Shown here: one piece after another, positions 23,248-30,033 of the stretch
Layout of the letters: each line of letters starts with the position of its first letter
Numbering within the stretch: position 1 is the stretch's first letter
DNA from: a virus
IMG/VR virus record: IMGVR_UViG_3300034407_001272
Coordinates: 1 to 30,136 of that record
DNA length: 30,136 nucleotides
Reading direction: 5' to 3' (one strand)
Made by a program: the position numbers and the translations under genes
Notes under the pieces: generated by a model
The model's input: only the letters and a program-made list of their open reading frames with translations
Told to the model about the DNA's origin: nothing
Database searches by the model: none

Positions 23248-23408
23248 AGATCATTAAGTTCCCCGACCGGTCGCAGCGCGTCCAGCCGGTGTGCGACGTG
23301 GCGCGACAAGAGTTCGAACTGAAGCAACAAGCGGAAATCATCCGACAGCAAGCTTTAGAAATCAGAAAGAGACGTAAAGATGCTGAAAGAACTGGTGATA
23401 AACGATAA
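23244..23408 (+). CDS. 54-aa basic helical protein between terminase subunits, unknown
   Basis: The start overlaps the TerS stop (ATGA) and the end overlaps the first 29 bases of TerL in another frame. Translation begins MKIIKFPDRSQRVQPVCDV and continues with a strongly charged helix (ELKQQAEIIRQQALEIRKRRKDAERTGDKR). T7 has its spanin genes 18.5/18.7 in this place, but this protein has neither a membrane span nor a lipobox. A short helical partner of the terminase is one possibility; the sequence gives no firm clue. Confidence 0.6.
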   Translation: MKIIKFPDRSQRVQPVCDVARQEFELKQQAEIIRQQALEIRKRRKDAERTGDKR

Positions 23409-25233
23409 GGCCCACTGGGAAACTAACGCACCACCACATGTGTGGGCCGCATACGAGGACTTTCGAAACTTTCTGTACCTCACATGGCAACACTTGGGAT
23501 TACCAGAGCCTACCCCTGCCCAGTATGAGATCGCTTATCGTCTCCAATACGGCGTGGACACCACTGAGTCACCAGACGATCTCGCAAGTGGACCCAGGGA
23601 AGACATCATCAGGTGCTTCCGGTCGCTGGGCAAGTCGTACATCACCAGTGCCTACGCGATCTGGCGTCTCATGCGGAACCCTCGCGACGAAAAGATCATG
23701 GTCGTGAGTGCCACGGGTAGTAAATCCAAAGAGTTCGTGGCGCAAACTAAAGGTATCTGCCAATCGATGCCCCTCGTACAGTGGTTACTCGAAGGTCCGA
23801 GAGACAACGGCGCGACACGACGCGACATGGCAGAACAGTTTGACGTCGCTGGGGCCAGTTTGTCTCAATCGTATTCGGTCGTGGCGCGGGGTATCACTGG
23901 GCAGATCACTGGGTCACGGGCCACGTTGTTAATCGCTGATGACATCGAAGTAGAACGGAACTCACTGACTGAAGAAGCTAGACGTCGAATAGTTAAGATC
24001 GTGCAGTCAGATTTCGTTCCGATCACCAAGACAGAACACGGCAAGGGCGACATCATATTCCTTGGGACACCACAGACCGAGGAGAGTGTGTACAATACGC
24101 TGGTCAAAGAGATGGGCTTCCGGTGCTTCACGATCCCCGTCAGGTTCCCAACAGCCGACAAACTGAAGAACTACGTACTGACAGACAATCAAACGGGGCG
24201 TGAAGTAAATATCCTAGCGCACTACTTGCGTGATCTATTCGACAACAACAAGATCAAGCATGGTGGACCCACAGACAGTCGCTTTGCAGAAGACGAACTG
24301 ATGCATATCGAAGCGAAAGGCAAATCGTCCTTTGCGCTACAGTACATGCTCGACACGTCCCTCAGTGACGCAGAGCGTTACCCGCTGAGACAGTCCGATC
24401 TGATCGTGATGTCGTGCAATCCCCTTAAAGCACCACTGACTGTGCAGTGGGGAAGACACAACGATAAGCACAATCTGGTCAAAGACATACCAAACGTGGG
24501 CTTCTCTGGAGACCATATGCTGCGTCCGCTCTTTGTGGACACAGAATGGGAACCTTACGAGTCCAAGGTGCTATTCGTTGATCCATCAGGACGTGGTAAA
24601 GACGAAACGGCGTGGGCCATCGTAGGTGCACTCAATGGGATACTGTATGTCCTACAGTGTTGTGGCTTTGCGTCCGACCCCGCCGAGGCAATGGCACGGA
24701 TCGCGGTAGACGCGAAGAAATACAATGTGAGTACCATAGAGGTCGAGCCGAACTACGGGCAAGGCATGTGGACCGTAGCGTTCCAACCGATCTTGTCGAA
24801 CATATGGCAGGGCGGCTGCACCGTTAAGGAGTCCGAATGGGCTAAAGGTCAAAAGGAAGGCCGTATCATCGACACGTTGGAGCCGGTCATGGCGCAACAC
24901 AGGCTGGTACTGGACGAAGACCTAGCGAAACGTGAAGCACGTACAGAGGACCACACGTTCTCTCTACTGTACCAGCTAACGCACATCACAAGAGACCGTG
25001 GTGCACTGCGTCACGATGATCGCCTAGACGCTCTAGCAGGAGCCGTCGCGCACTACATGAGATCAATGGGTCAAGACGTCGATGAAGCAGCCAAAGGCGT
25101 ACTACGACAGCGCATGGATGACGAAATCGATGACTTCATGGAGTTCATGGAGGGCGGTGCGATCATGGGACGATCCCGTGGTGTCCGCAAGAACGGTCAG
25201 AGGACTGAAGTGTGGTCCACAGACCGGTCGTAA
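23380..25233 (+). CDS. Terminase large subunit (T7 gp19-like)
   Basis: 617 aa versus 586 aa for T7 gp19. It is the packaging motor ATPase and the nuclease that cuts concatemers. The Walker A-like loop is RCFRSLGKS (residues 78-86), in the T7-type form lacking the classic GxxGxGK. Walker B is LLIADDIE at about 183-190, followed by the coupling region DIIFLGTPQTEES. RNase H-like nuclease residues appear as FVDPSGRGKDE (D401) and RHDDRLDALAG (D546/D547, D550). The gene lies after TerS as in T7. The start codon overlaps the preceding small gene. Confidence 0.96.
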   Translation: MLKELVINDKAHWETNAPPHVWAAYEDFRNFLYLTWQHLGLPEPTPAQYEIAYRLQYGVDTTESPDDLASGPREDIIRCFRSLGKSYITSAYAIWRLMRNPRDEKIMVVSATGSKSKEFVAQTKGICQSMPLVQWLLEGPRDNGATRRDMAEQFDVAGASLSQSYSVVARGITGQITGSRATLLIADDIEVERNSLTEEARRRIVKIVQSDFVPITKTEHGKGDIIFLGTPQTEESVYNTLVKEMGFRCFTIPVRFPTADKLKNYVLTDNQTGREVNILAHYLRDLFDNNKIKHGGPTDSRFAEDELMHIEAKGKSSFALQYMLDTSLSDAERYPLRQSDLIVMSCNPLKAPLTVQWGRHNDKHNLVKDIPNVGFSGDHMLRPLFVDTEWEPYESKVLFVDPSGRGKDETAWAIVGALNGILYVLQCCGFASDPAEAMARIAVDAKKYNVSTIEVEPNYGQGMWTVAFQPILSNIWQGGCTVKESEWAKGQKEGRIIDTLEPVMAQHRLVLDEDLAKREARTEDHTFSLLYQLTHITRDRGALRHDDRLDALAGAVAHYMRSMGQDVDEAAKGVLRQRMDDEIDDFMEFMEGGAIMGRSRGVRKNGQRTEVWSTDRS

Positions 25234-25663: not shown

Positions 25664-25670
25664 CCACTGG

Positions 25671-25697
25671 ACGAACTAAACGAACTGAACGAACATA
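25671..25697 (+). repeat. Three tandem 9-bp repeats, ACGAAC-containing, between endolysin and next gene
   Basis: The copies are ACGAACTAA, ACGAACTGA and ACGAACATA, end to end, directly upstream of an AGAGGAG ribosome site. A related AACGAAC...TAAAG string occurs before the endolysin gene (about 25,233-25,246). They may be binding sites or a by-product of local slippage. Confidence 0.6.
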
Positions 25698-25712
25698 AAG
25701 AGGAGCGGGACG

Positions 25713-25940
25713 ATGTGGATAGGCGTCATTATGATCTGCGCTAATGTAACCATAGAAGACTTAACGATCACGGCAGAAGTCCAAAACTGCCACGCAATGG
25801 TACGCAATTCGATACTGTTCGATAACGAACAAGAGTGTCGGCAAGTGGTGCCATACGAACTGGACCTACTGACCCAAACGAACAACGGCTGGGGTAAATA
25901 CGATTGTCTGCCGTTAGACATGCAGGGACCAACTGTCTAA
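25713..25940 (+). CDS. Small Cys-containing protein with hydrophobic N-terminus, unknown
   Basis: 75 aa: MWIGVIMICANVTIEDLTIT, then NCHAMVRNSILFDNEQECRQVV and a C-terminal GKYDCLPLD. The MWxxVIMIC start, a Cys before a helix, a 'F.NEqEC' segment and a final Cys recall a small family I have seen in marine phage genomes near the end of the late module. The N-terminus is a hydrophobic strand or weak export signal. Four Cys could form disulfides outside the cytoplasm. AGGAGCGGGACG gives the start. No function can be assigned. Confidence 0.65.
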   Translation: MWIGVIMICANVTIEDLTITAEVQNCHAMVRNSILFDNEQECRQVVPYELDLLTQTNNGWGKYDCLPLDMQGPTV

Positions 25941-26099
25941 TCTAAGCGTGAACCATACGTGAACTAAGCGGATTCTAAAAGTTGCGGAAGATTCGTATGG
26001 GTATATCTCCCCCCGCGCGCACACAGAAAACCCCCATAGCCCCCCCGATCTTGGCGCAGACAAATCGATCTGGAAAGGGGGGTCGGGGCCGGTGCTTTT

Positions 26100-26218
26100 T
26101 GTGATCGATTGGCACACTATCGGACACACTATCGGACACGACCGACACAATCGCCTTGTTTTTATGGTGCTGTGCGATGCGGTCCGTATGTAAATCATAG
26201 TCGCGTGTGATCGATTGG
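26100..26218. repeat. 13-bp direct repeat (TGTGATCGATTGG) in the non-coding region
   Basis: Identical copies at 26100-26112 and 26206-26218, both on the + strand and both containing the palindrome ATCGAT. Each is followed within 20 nt by a CACAC- or CACTGTG-type sequence. The 106-bp distance and identical 13 bases are unlikely by chance in so short a region and suggest protein-binding sites. Confidence 0.7.
26113..26136. repeat. Two perfect tandem 12-bp repeats (CACACTATCGGA)
   Basis: Copies at 26113-26124 and 26125-26136, followed by a degenerate third unit starting CACGACCGA. They follow directly after the first 13-bp repeat. Short iterons next to a genome end or replication start often bind an initiator or terminase. 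Confidence 0.8.
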
Positions 26219-26326
26219 ACACTGTGCGACGTCGCGCCGGTGTCAAATGGTGCTGATTTTCGCTTGTTTTCCAATCGTTTACACTAATATGCAAACCACT
26301 GTTTTTTTCGTTTGACAATCGCACAG
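26170..26326. repeat. Three copies of CTGTGCGA, two direct and one inverted
   Basis: Direct copies at 26170-26177 and 26222-26229; an inverted copy (TCGCACAG) at 26319-26326. The inverted copy directly follows a TTGACA hexamer (26312-26317). These could be operator-like sites for control of the first early gene. Confidence 0.5.
26264..26290 (+). promoter_or_regulatory. Weak candidate sigma70-type promoter upstream of the GP88 gene
   Basis: TTGTTT (26264-26269) and TAATAT (26285-26290) are separated by 15 nt, shorter than the ideal 17. A perfect TTGACA at 26312-26317 has no good -10 box at normal distance. T7-like phages start early transcription with host polymerase, so a host-type promoter is expected here, but these matches are weak. 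Confidence 0.3.
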
Positions 26327-26408
26327 CACTCGACGCAGTCTTACGTTATCGCAATTCACTTGATCGAGTCGCGCTGTACAACAAAACGCAAGCTTTGAGG
26401 AAAACAAA

Positions 26409-27176
26409 ATGCAACAACTATCGAAAACCGAAATCGCCGTTATGACGTCGCGCAGTGTCTATAAAAACCGCGTAAAGAGCGTCACGGACTCAATGGGTAA
26501 AACCGAGAGAGTCATTAAGAAATCCACAAACGTTAAGCTTGGCAAAAGAGTTTCACGCGGCAAGCTTAAAGGTGCGCCAATCTATACAGTGACACTAGAA
26601 GAACGCGCGACGTGTCCGGTGTCATGTGCACATTGGAAAACGTGCTATGGTAACAATATGATGTTTGCCATTCGTTACGACGCAAACGACGCTTTGATTG
26701 AGACAATGGAAAGCGAATTGGTCGAACTGCAGCGCAAGCACCCAAACGGTTTCATGGTCCGGTTGCATGTTTTGGGCGATTTCTTTTCGGTCGCTTACGT
26801 CGCAAAATGGGCAAAATGGCTCACAATGTTTCCCGCGTTGAATATTTACGGTTATACAGCCAATCAACCGGACGCGACGGACACGCTTGAACGCTCTATA
26901 GGTCTCGCATTGTTAAGCTTGCGGTCTGCTAGTCCTACACGTTTCGCTATTCGTTTTAGCGGCAATTTTGAGCATGACACTTGGACCGCATTGAGCGCGG
27001 ACGATAGTCGTGCGGTCGATATGGTCGCCAATAAGCAAGCGTTTATCTGCCCTACGCAAATATCGGTTGAAACCGGTAAGCTTGCTAAAAAAGACGAAAA
27101 GACACTTGTTCCCGATTGTGGTGCTTGCGGTCTATGTTGGACCGCTCAAAAGCCGGTCGTATTTTTAACCCATTGA
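26409..27176 (+). CDS. GP88-family Cys-rich protein (early region)
   Basis: 255 aa. It resembles the 'gene product 88' family first named from mycobacteriophages and common in phages of Proteobacteria. Marks of the family are TCPVSCAHWKTCYGNN (Cys 69, 73, 79), VRLHVLGDFFS at about 115-125, IYGYTANQ, FAIRFSGN, FICPTQ (Cys 214) and DCGACGLCW (Cys 237, 240, 243), ending FLTH. Seven Cys at the two ends suggest a metal or Fe-S site; the repeated strand motifs suggest a barrel. No activity is established as far as I know. The leader has the ribosome site TTTGAGGAAAACAAA. It is the first gene after the presumed genome-end region, so it may be among the first expressed. Confidence 0.8.
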   Translation: MQQLSKTEIAVMTSRSVYKNRVKSVTDSMGKTERVIKKSTNVKLGKRVSRGKLKGAPIYTVTLEERATCPVSCAHWKTCYGNNMMFAIRYDANDALIETMESELVELQRKHPNGFMVRLHVLGDFFSVAYVAKWAKWLTMFPALNIYGYTANQPDATDTLERSIGLALLSLRSASPTRFAIRFSGNFEHDTWTALSADDSRAVDMVANKQAFICPTQISVETGKLAKKDEKTLVPDCGACGLCWTAQKPVVFLTH

Positions 27177-27215: not shown

Positions 27216-27380
27216 ATGATACGCAAAGTACTAATCGAAACCGCATTGATTTTATGCATGACCGTCGTGCCCTACGCCGCATTCGTTTACGCGGTCCGCG
27301 CCGGTCATATTGAATTCTTTCCGGTGTCACCCGCTGACAATCTTTCCGAACATTCGATCTATGGCAGGGGTATGAAATGA
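27216..27380 (+). CDS. 54-aa single-span membrane protein, unknown
   Basis: AGGAG at 27203-27207 lies 8 nt before the ATG. Translation is MIRKVLIETALILCMTVVPY then AAFVYAVRAGHIEFFPVSPADNL..., ending YGRGMK. Residues about 4-26 form one membrane span, with positive residues before it. The short tail is acidic then basic. The stop overlaps the next start (ATGA). Small membrane proteins made early often act on host membrane functions, but no family is recognised. Confidence 0.65.
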   Translation: MIRKVLIETALILCMTVVPYAAFVYAVRAGHIEFFPVSPADNLSEHSIYGRGMK

Positions 27381-27547: not shown

Positions 27548-27853
27548 ATGAAAGCTTCAAAGATTCTAAAAGTAGGCACCAATCGCGGGAAGCCTCGCGC
27601 GTGGGTCGAAGGTAAATTCTTGATCGACGCCGGTTGGGTCCGTGGTGTCACGTATCACCAGACCATTGAAAAAGACGCATTGGTCCTATCGGCTCATGAG
27701 GGCGGCAAGAAACGTGTGGCTGGTTCTGTGGGACGTCCGGTGCTCGATTTAAATGGTGGCTATCTGACGCCGCTATTTGAGGGCTGTGTGACGTTTTCTG
27801 TCACTCACGACGCTTTAAGCGATCAAATCGTAATCAAAGGAGTCAAATCATGA
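27548..27853 (+). CDS. SymE/AbrB-like small protein
   Basis: 101 aa with a good ribosome site (AAAGAGGAAACCAAA). The stretch GKPRAWVEGKFLIDAGWVRGVTYHQTIEKDALVLSA resembles the swapped-hairpin (AbrB/MazE) core of SymE-type proteins (PxLxLxGxWLxxAGFxxGxxv.v....L.L). The C-terminal half (AGSVGRPVLDLNGGYLTPLFEG to QIVIKGVKS) is beta-rich. SymE proteins are SOS-linked RNA-acting toxins or nucleoid-binding proteins; phage relatives are uncharacterised. The resemblance is by motif only. The stop overlaps the next start (ATGA). Confidence 0.65.
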   Translation: MKASKILKVGTNRGKPRAWVEGKFLIDAGWVRGVTYHQTIEKDALVLSAHEGGKKRVAGSVGRPVLDLNGGYLTPLFEGCVTFSVTHDALSDQIVIKGVKS

Positions 27854-29570: not shown

Positions 29571-29815
29571 CTAATGAACTTACAGCACCGCGATTAGACA
29601 TTTTGAATAGCCCGATACCTTTTGGCGGTAAAGGACGCACTCTGACCAGTTCAGAACTGAAGGCTTTACGAAATCACGGCTACAAATGCAGCACCGGCTG
29701 GACCGTTGTGCGTACTGGTGGTGATGTCGCTTGGATTGGCGCAGCGTATCGACCACACCGGCGGTGCGGGGGCTTTTCATCTGTGGGACTAGTGCTGACG
29801 TGGGGAGCAATCTGA
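29567..29815 (+). CDS. 82-aa protein, unknown
   Basis: MTNELTAPRLDILNSPIPFG, then GGKGRTLTSSELKALRNHGYKCSTGWTVVRTGGDVAWIGAAYRPHRR and a Gly-rich end. The LTSSELKALRNHGY helix could be DNA-contacting. The C-terminus after residue 65 is compositionally odd. It is coupled at both ends (ATGA, then TGATG). Confidence 0.5.
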   Translation: MTNELTAPRLDILNSPIPFGGKGRTLTSSELKALRNHGYKCSTGWTVVRTGGDVAWIGAAYRPHRRCGGFSSVGLVLTWGAI

Positions 29816-30033
29816 TGACTGACCTAAAAGGCAACCTACTGGTCCAGACGTTTCAAGCGGCTGGCTGGGTGTATCCAAAGGACCACGCACACACACACAA
29901 AGCCAGCGTTTATCGCGCTTATGAGGCTTTGCTAGATGACGGCTTAGTCGAGAAAGATTGGGACAGTTCAACCATTCGATATCGGACAACTGAGAAAGCA
30001 AAACGACAACTTTTGAGAGGACTGAACGTATGA
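29815..30033 (+). CDS. Small winged-helix-like protein, candidate regulator
   Basis: 72 aa starting at the ATG in the TGATG overlap: MTDLKGNLLVQTFQAAGWVY, then KASVYRAYEALLDDGLVEKDWDSSTIRYRTTEKAKRQL. Helix (SVYRAYEALLDDGLVEKD) followed by a short strand turn (IRYRTTEKAKRQL) is the pattern of a recognition helix plus wing in winged-helix proteins. It might regulate phage or host transcription; this is inference from the motif alone. Its stop overlaps the next start. Confidence 0.55.
   Translation: MTDLKGNLLVQTFQAAGWVYPKDHAHTHKASVYRAYEALLDDGLVEKDWDSSTIRYRTTEKAKRQLLRGLNV

Follow-up and report, generated by a model that had tools for sequence, protein, structure and literature searches.

What does the 255-residue protein encoded just beyond the late genes of a T7-like virus do, and what are its two sets of cysteines for? 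The window, by which we mean the whole stretch of DNA analysed, is a 30,136-base virus record in which T7-like late genes are present. The gene comes after the terminase and lysis end of this late region, and its surroundings are organized as follows.

23380..25233, + strand: terminase large subunit / DNA maturase B, sharing 41.5% identity with its counterpart (maturase B) in Roseobacter phage CRP-114
25268-25663: small endolysin-type gene, its DNA similar to phage M15-peptidase/endolysin genes
25664..26408, strand not applicable: 745-base stretch that separates the GP88 gene from the endolysin-type gene, the presumed genome-end junction
25713-25940: one small ORF inside the 745-base stretch
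26409..27176, + strand: GP88-family protein, 255 aa, with an ATG start, a Pfam GP88 match and an AlphaFold2 model
27216..27380, + strand: 54-aa ORF directly 3' of the GP88 gene, read from the sequence
27548-27853: early 101-aa ORF, no family match
29731-30033: early 100-aa ORF, weak winged-helix match (PadR, below cut-off) and weak match to phrog_4278

The 54-aa ORF gave no match in the PHROG search and possibly shares an early operon with the GP88 gene. At the other end of the window two small proteins adjoin (255-497 and 509-889), both of which begin with MC and finish with VGTGINTNQ; the former, rich in proline, has a match to phrog_13568 (unknown function), and the latter had no match in the PHROG search. 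The two neighbouring genes have this C-terminal tag in common.

A reading of the DNA from its letters alone (hereafter the sequence-only reading) had assigned the protein to the GP88 family, and the Pfam search agreed. The score against GP88 (PF17338) was 48.7 bits, with a cut-off of 24.4 bits and an E-value of 1.1e-12, which makes the protein a member, and the score against DUF7227 (PF23872) was 20.5 bits, below the cut-off of 27 bits. The matching PHROGs, 2554 and 1392, are both of unknown function. The window protein had no Pfam match up to E 1 to either DUF5131 (PF07505) or Radical_SAM (PF04055), and no match in NCBIfam; no SPASM/Twitch auxiliary-cluster model appeared among its Pfam and NCBIfam results, the Cys quartet being present nonetheless. 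The PDB sequence search returned nothing for the window protein and two chance-level matches (E 1.2 and 2) for the alignment A2, a plasmid search gave only 3 weak matches, and scans of viral contigs with a single DUF7227 sequence or with the window protein alone yielded no confirmed relative. The family had also been described as widespread in phages yet of no known function. Indeed, the EagleEye protein has matches in 375 records and a DUF7227 query in 186, so that hundreds of sequenced phages, D29 and P-SSP7 included, carry GP88 or DUF7227, and the annotations seen name no function, being hypothetical, uncharacterised or blank save for an HTH label in RcZahn. A literature search, with most subscription journals outside its scope, found nothing for PF17338, PF23872, PF07505 or DUF7227. 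Titles and the beginnings of abstracts within the same scope did not present GP88 as a radical-SAM protein, and we make no claim that the link drawn below is new to the literature.

The window protein contains exactly seven Cys, at the positions given by the sequence-only reading (69, 73, 79, 214, 237, 240 and 243) and nowhere else, which form two sets.

26613..26645, + strand: N-terminal Cys triad in the loop after predicted strand 57-61, proposed radical-SAM-type [4Fe-4S] site (Cys69, 26613-26615; Cys73, 26625-26627; Cys79, 26643-26645)
27048..27137, + strand: C-terminal Cys quartet, proposed auxiliary Fe-S (or Zn) site (Cys214, 27048-27050; Cys237, 27117-27119; Cys240, 27126-27128; Cys243, 27135-27137)

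In an alignment of 92 sequences including the window protein, positions 69, 79, 214, 237, 240 and 243 are Cys in 92/92 and position 73 is Cys in 80/92; the other 12 we take to be the 12 actinophage proteins, with the middle Cys elsewhere. The GP88 proteins of actinophages (12 aligned; D29 gp88 of mycobacteriophages is a member of the family) have both triad and quartet in common with the window protein, whereas the triad spacing is C-x3-C-x5-C in the window branch and C-x6-C-x3-C in the actinophage branch. DUF7227 proteins (five aligned) likewise carry the triad and quartet as in the window protein, and phrog_2554 is common to both. A wider alignment of 87 sequences, again with the window included, consists of A2 and nine additions, which include DUF7227, Methanomassiliicoccales virus and cyanomyovirus proteins. 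When scored by alignment columns, with the middle Cys allowed to shift, the triad is complete in 87/87 and the quartet in 85/87. Five triad spacings occur (x3/x5 in 67, x6/x3 in 14, x3/x6 in 4, and x5/x3 and x5/x23 in 1 each), and the canonical CxxxCxxC (x3/x2) is found in 0/87. As judged from these alignments, the seven-Cys pattern is not chance.

The two sets can be separated. The two proteins of the wide alignment that lack the quartet and keep the triad, vir335 and that of Synechococcus phage B23, were assigned to GP88 in the Pfam search (2e-36 and 3.8e-50). Proteins of DUF5131 (Gp37/Gp68), the family to which we return below, differ from GP88 in having the triad as C-x6-C-x2-C(Y) in 70/70 and the quartet pattern in 0/70. 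Since the quartet is lost without loss of the triad in both cases, one joint site is unlikely, and two separate Cys sites appear the better fit to the alignments. The sequence-only reading had envisaged a barrel closed by a metal or Fe-S cluster held by both Cys groups. The single metal site closing the barrel was rejected on these counts (triad kept without quartet in 2/87 GP88 and 70/70 DUF5131 proteins); the remainder of the proposal, a probable Fe-S or metal protein with a barrel-like fold, is supported.

The AlphaFold2 model of the GP88 protein, built from an alignment of 78 sequences (the window and contig proteins), had a pLDDT of 92.2 and a pTM of 0.89. Its N-terminal half is predicted to run from strand 57-61 through the triad loop (69-79), helix 94-110 and strand 115-119 to GDF, and its C-terminal half comprises helix 128-140, strand 144-150, helix 159-174, strands 179-184 and 193-196, the quartet, and strand 250-252. 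Three motifs fall within this order.

26760..26789, + strand: RLHVLGDFFS, residues 118-127, predicted strand 115-119 followed by the conserved GD
26844..26861, + strand: IYGYTA, residues 146-151, on predicted strand 144-150
26943..26966, + strand: FAIRFSGN, residues 179-186, on predicted strand 179-184, with S184 invariant

These motifs, starting at residues 118, 146 and 179, had been described as repeated and strand-like; they do lie on predicted strands and are not repeats of one another in sequence. Apart from the Cys, R118, G123, D124 and S184 are found in 87/87 sequences of the wide alignment, K43 in 86/87, and H120 and W134 in 82/87 each, and residue 150 within IYGYTA is T in 70/87 and S in 17/87. 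In the predicted structure the three conserved Cys lie in one loop after strand 57-61, as in a radical-SAM protein, and the invariant GD would occupy the place of the GGE-type motif after the second strand. One profile alignment puts GDF on GGE, with Phe on Glu, and we propose from sequence that GDF is the counterpart of the radical-SAM GGE motif.

GP88 resembles radical-SAM enzymes such as spore photoproduct lyase, RlmN, viperin and QueE in having a Cys loop after a strand of what is predicted to be a barrel-like fold, and is unlike them in lacking CxxxCxxC, in having GDF for GGE, and in having no Pfam Radical_SAM match. The likeness of the fold itself is weak for GP88, whereas it is strong for DUF5131. 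Foldseek of the GP88 model against the PDB gave no match at E <= 0.001, and VIA-align against the PDB gave low Z-scores, of which that of RsbS (5.4) was the highest. Among the best 50 VIA-align rows, 8 are radical-SAM enzymes (QueE, viperin, LIAS and RlmN), none ranked lower than 16th; their Z-scores of 4.6-5.1 are tied with those of unrelated folds, and by themselves they would be no more than a hint. Against viral models, Foldseek placed QueE-like, radical-SAM and PFL-activase proteins at ranks 22, 27, 32 and 44, with E-values of 0.05 to 0.4 and amid unrelated proteins. The profile search against radical-SAM families that had been suggested from the sequence gave a divided answer, with no Pfam match up to E 1 and an hhalign P of 0.0072 for A2 against 25 PF04055 domains (1/150 shuffles as high). 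In that alignment, C69 and C73 fall on the first and second Cys and GDF falls on GGE, and C79 misses the third Cys. With the wide profile the P-value against PF04055 was 0.029 over 111 columns (1/150 shuffles as high). The comparison with QueE gave P 0.038 for A2 (1/150 shuffles) and fails for the wide profile (P 0.14; 14/150 shuffles); as a positive control, QueE was compared with PF04055, for which the P-value was 5e-16.

DUF5131 offers a bridge. When 149 genomes were searched with the GP88 model, there were 9 matches, one to a GP88 protein and 8 to DUF5131 proteins; these 8 match DUF5131 in Pfam at 1e-105 to 4.5e-38, and 7/8 exceed the GP88 cut-off. Because the 8 were found by the GP88 model itself, a fairer count comes from 61 viral DUF5131 proteins, which are relatives of one of them: the Pfam GP88 model matched 30/61 at E <= 0.1, the best at 1e-7, and left 31/61 unmatched. 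No third Pfam family besides GP88 and DUF5131 matches any of the 61. By hhalign against 70 viral DUF5131 proteins, A2 gave P 2.3e-4 over 38 columns, with 0/150 column shuffles scoring as high, and the wide GP88 profile gave P 1.2e-3 over 76 columns, again with 0/150 shuffles as high. The wide alignment sets CY on CY, GDFFS on SDLFH and YTAN on LTKR, such that DUF5131, like GP88, has a three-Cys motif ending in CY, with SDLFH and LTKR corresponding to GDFFS and YTAN in conserved order. When Foldseek was run against viral models, all 14 matches with E <= 0.001 were GP88, DUF7227 or unnamed, and a Gp37/Gp68-like protein followed at rank 16 (E 1.8e-3; TM 0.48/0.51). Narrower GP88 HMMs (A2 and actinophage-only) matched 0/78 DUF5131 proteins at E 10; the link therefore depends on hhalign and on the broader model in Pfam, and we hold the step from GP88 to DUF5131 with moderate confidence. 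TcmP is a candidate partner of DUF5131. The parts of PMC12429752 and PMC12445080 that were available contained nothing usable on TcmP in this role.

The model of one phage DUF5131 protein (L243:3001-3693; relatives L244-L322) had a pLDDT of 95.2. Its top match in the PDB was spore photoproduct lyase, at Z 14.2 and an rmsd of 2.9 over 193 aligned residues, followed by RlmN (Z 11.6) and viperin (Z 11.5). The first 46 of the best 50 PDB entries are known radical-SAM enzymes, most of their titles being silent on this point, and a designed protein comes after them at Z 9.0. The Foldseek E-values were modest, spore photoproduct lyase appearing at 4.6e-3 behind designed TIM barrels. By fold, there is good evidence in this model that the phage DUF5131 (Gp37/Gp68) protein has a radical-SAM fold. 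Its closeness to spore photoproduct lyase is a finding in its own right; the spore photoproduct lyase family (PF20903) was present in only 1/120 genomes. At the level of sequence, the NCBIfam model 'radical SAM mobile pair protein A' matched 2/3 DUF5131 proteins at 5e-24 and 4e-23 (84.9 and 81.9 bits, far under the cut-off of 355) and the third at 0.0037. DUF5131 against PF04055 was not significant, at P 0.29 with 8 proteins and P 0.15 with 70, and the match to QueE (P 0.0059) placed a late GGE of DUF5131 on that of QueE, out of register with the triad. It is by way of DUF5131 that the early impression of a protein reminiscent of radical SAM, without its CxxxCxxC, is partly borne out.

The gene had been suggested to be the first early gene, lying right after the presumed genome end, and gene order in its relatives agrees with this. 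The nearest named relatives are gp1 of CRP-361 and gp1 of CRP-114 (70% identity, full length), from Autographiviridae isolated on marine Roseobacter. The GP88 orthologue is the first annotated gene in both isolate genomes, and is followed by small genes and by those for an annotated MarR regulator, an integrase and the RNA polymerase of the phage. Among the 156 loci searched, maturase B begins 2.1-3.0 kb before GP88 in four metagenome contigs (L010, L012, L013 and L027), an arrangement that matches that of the window, and 2/4 (L010 and L013) extend downstream to the integrase and polymerase. The first annotated gene of the Prochlorococcus cyanophage P-SSP7, PSSP7_001, is a DUF7227 protein, located ahead of gp0.7 (MarR), the integrase and the RNA polymerase, an order also seen in the Roseobacter phages. 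Counting from the right end of the D29 record, gp88 comes second among the annotated genes, and the copy in Streptomyces phage Peebs is close to the record end. Terminal repeats were sought in CRP-114 and CRP-361 and rejected, with 0 shared 12-mers between the first and last 1500 bases; since the isolate records share no terminal 12-mer, it is synteny that places the presumed genome end of the window at 25664..26408. Given the synteny in isolates, contigs and P-SSP7, the assignment of GP88 as the first gene of the early region is well supported by gene order, and early expression would be expected from this position. The available part of PMC9692554 calls PSSP7_011 an early gene, and the sole string in it resembling PSSP7_001 is PSSP7_0013; PMC5082946, as far as its available part goes, deals with a different phage.

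Several further observations concern this region. P-SSP7 gene 1 (L329:1079-1816) is uncharacterised, and is of DUF7227/GP88 type with the 3+4 Cys pattern. The 100-aa ORF at 29731-30033 of the window occupies roughly the slot of the CRP-114 MarR gene. A TTGACA occurs at 26312, upstream of GP88; a conserved early promoter was rejected, as TTGAC lies <=150 bp upstream in only 6/31 relatives, and a promoter scan showed no excess (2 found, 3.1 expected). In a conserved-neighbour search by all-against-all clustering, spurious ORFs drowned the signal.

Fusions point to the possible substrate. Two loci (L149:5905-7698 and L151:3884-5533) encode GP88 and a C-terminal ParB-like domain in one polypeptide (PHROG 1033; 1.8e-18 and 7.8e-16); they were the only two whose C-terminal extension was scanned alone, and they form a useful pair for the question whether GP88 works together with a ParB-like protein. 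In Thalassobaculum litoreum, GP88 is flanked within one 702-aa ORF (L123:5341-7449) by a preceding HTH and a following GcrA domain. The GcrA family comprises cell-cycle regulators of alphaproteobacteria. The GP88 relative of Ruegeria 45A6 contains HTH_23 twice. Among nine further long forms, 2 (L124 and L155) have an HTH above the Pfam cut-off, 5 have sub-threshold HTH, GcrA or repressor-type matches, and 2 have none; the ORFs of these loci start at the first in-frame start codon, and so the N-terminal parts may be over-long. Only 9/79 viral ORFs exceed 285 aa, which makes fusion a minority state. In Peebs, the GP88 gene shares 11 bases with the gene upstream of it, which is annotated as ParB-like, a label not supported by Pfam or PHROGs. 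Spore photoproduct lyase is a DNA-repair enzyme. The fusions, the ParB-like neighbour in Peebs and the match of DUF5131 to spore photoproduct lyase together make DNA the most likely substrate of GP88, though they are not proof.

The reading we prefer, at a probability of roughly 0.55, is that GP88 is a divergent Fe-S enzyme, radical-SAM-like and equipped with an additional cluster near its C terminus, encoded by the first early gene and carrying out radical chemistry on nucleic acid or nucleotides, most likely DNA. The protein would be a divergent branch of the DUF5131/radical-SAM-like fold; this homology by way of DUF5131, the clusters and the use of S-adenosylmethionine are what we infer. 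The triad, in the loop that follows a barrel strand, would bind a [4Fe-4S] cluster and leave one of its irons open for S-adenosylmethionine, GDF after the next strand would replace the GGE motif, and S184 would lie on a later strand. A separate auxiliary Fe-S cluster, fully ligated and proper to the GP88/DUF7227 branch, would be bound by the quartet CP...CxxCxxC at the C-terminal end. The phage would produce the protein from the first gene of its early region, and the protein would act on its nucleic acid or nucleotide substrate, DNA in the likeliest case, at the start of infection.

The same fusions could be read differently. GP88 might be a regulator that carries Fe-S (or Zn) on its barrel-like fold, in which SAM chemistry was lost or never present. 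Its clusters would then respond to redox or O2, or lend stability to a DNA-binding protein controlling early transcription. HTH or GcrA domains over the Pfam cut-offs in Ruegeria 45A6, L123, L124 and L155 would suit such a role, as would the weak direct fold match of GP88 to radical SAM and the missing CxxxCxxC. However, the window protein has no HTH match in Pfam, and with 9/79 viral ORFs above 285 aa there is little room for an HTH in the rest. R118, GD and S184, invariant besides the Cys, resemble an active site, and the DUF5131 relative has a clear radical-SAM fold in its model, so we regard a regulator as unlikely. A purely structural role is more doubtful still: the phage protein would be non-catalytic and its Cys sets would bind zinc, of which CxxCxxC beside a distant Cys-Pro could also be capable, but a triad kept in 87/87 with shifting spacing, and in 70/70 DUF5131 proteins of which the one modelled has a radical-SAM fold, would be an odd zinc site.

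If GP88 is an enzyme of radical-SAM type, its substrate could instead be RNA or free nucleotides, as for RlmN and viperin, with modification of tRNA or rRNA or the making of altered nucleotides as the outcome. The radical-SAM enzymes that the model of GP88 itself reaches are QueE, viperin, LIAS and RlmN, whereas the best match of DUF5131 is spore photoproduct lyase (Z 14.2 versus 11.6 for RlmN and 11.5 for viperin) and the HTH, GcrA and ParB-like fusions suggest DNA; we consider this reading improbable. The broadest statement of our preferred reading is also a tentative one that we rate at well under even odds: GP88, DUF7227 and DUF5131 may form one phage-rich radical-SAM-like clan, with a second cluster in GP88/DUF7227, which is the first gene of several T7-like marine phages and alters DNA.

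The radical-SAM-like reading provides a candidate chemistry for what is possibly the first protein made by these phages. If the one-clan reading is true, the incoming phage genome would be repaired or modified, or the host DNA damaged, and the first early gene of P-SSP7 and of the Roseobacter phages would have an enzymatic role in takeover.
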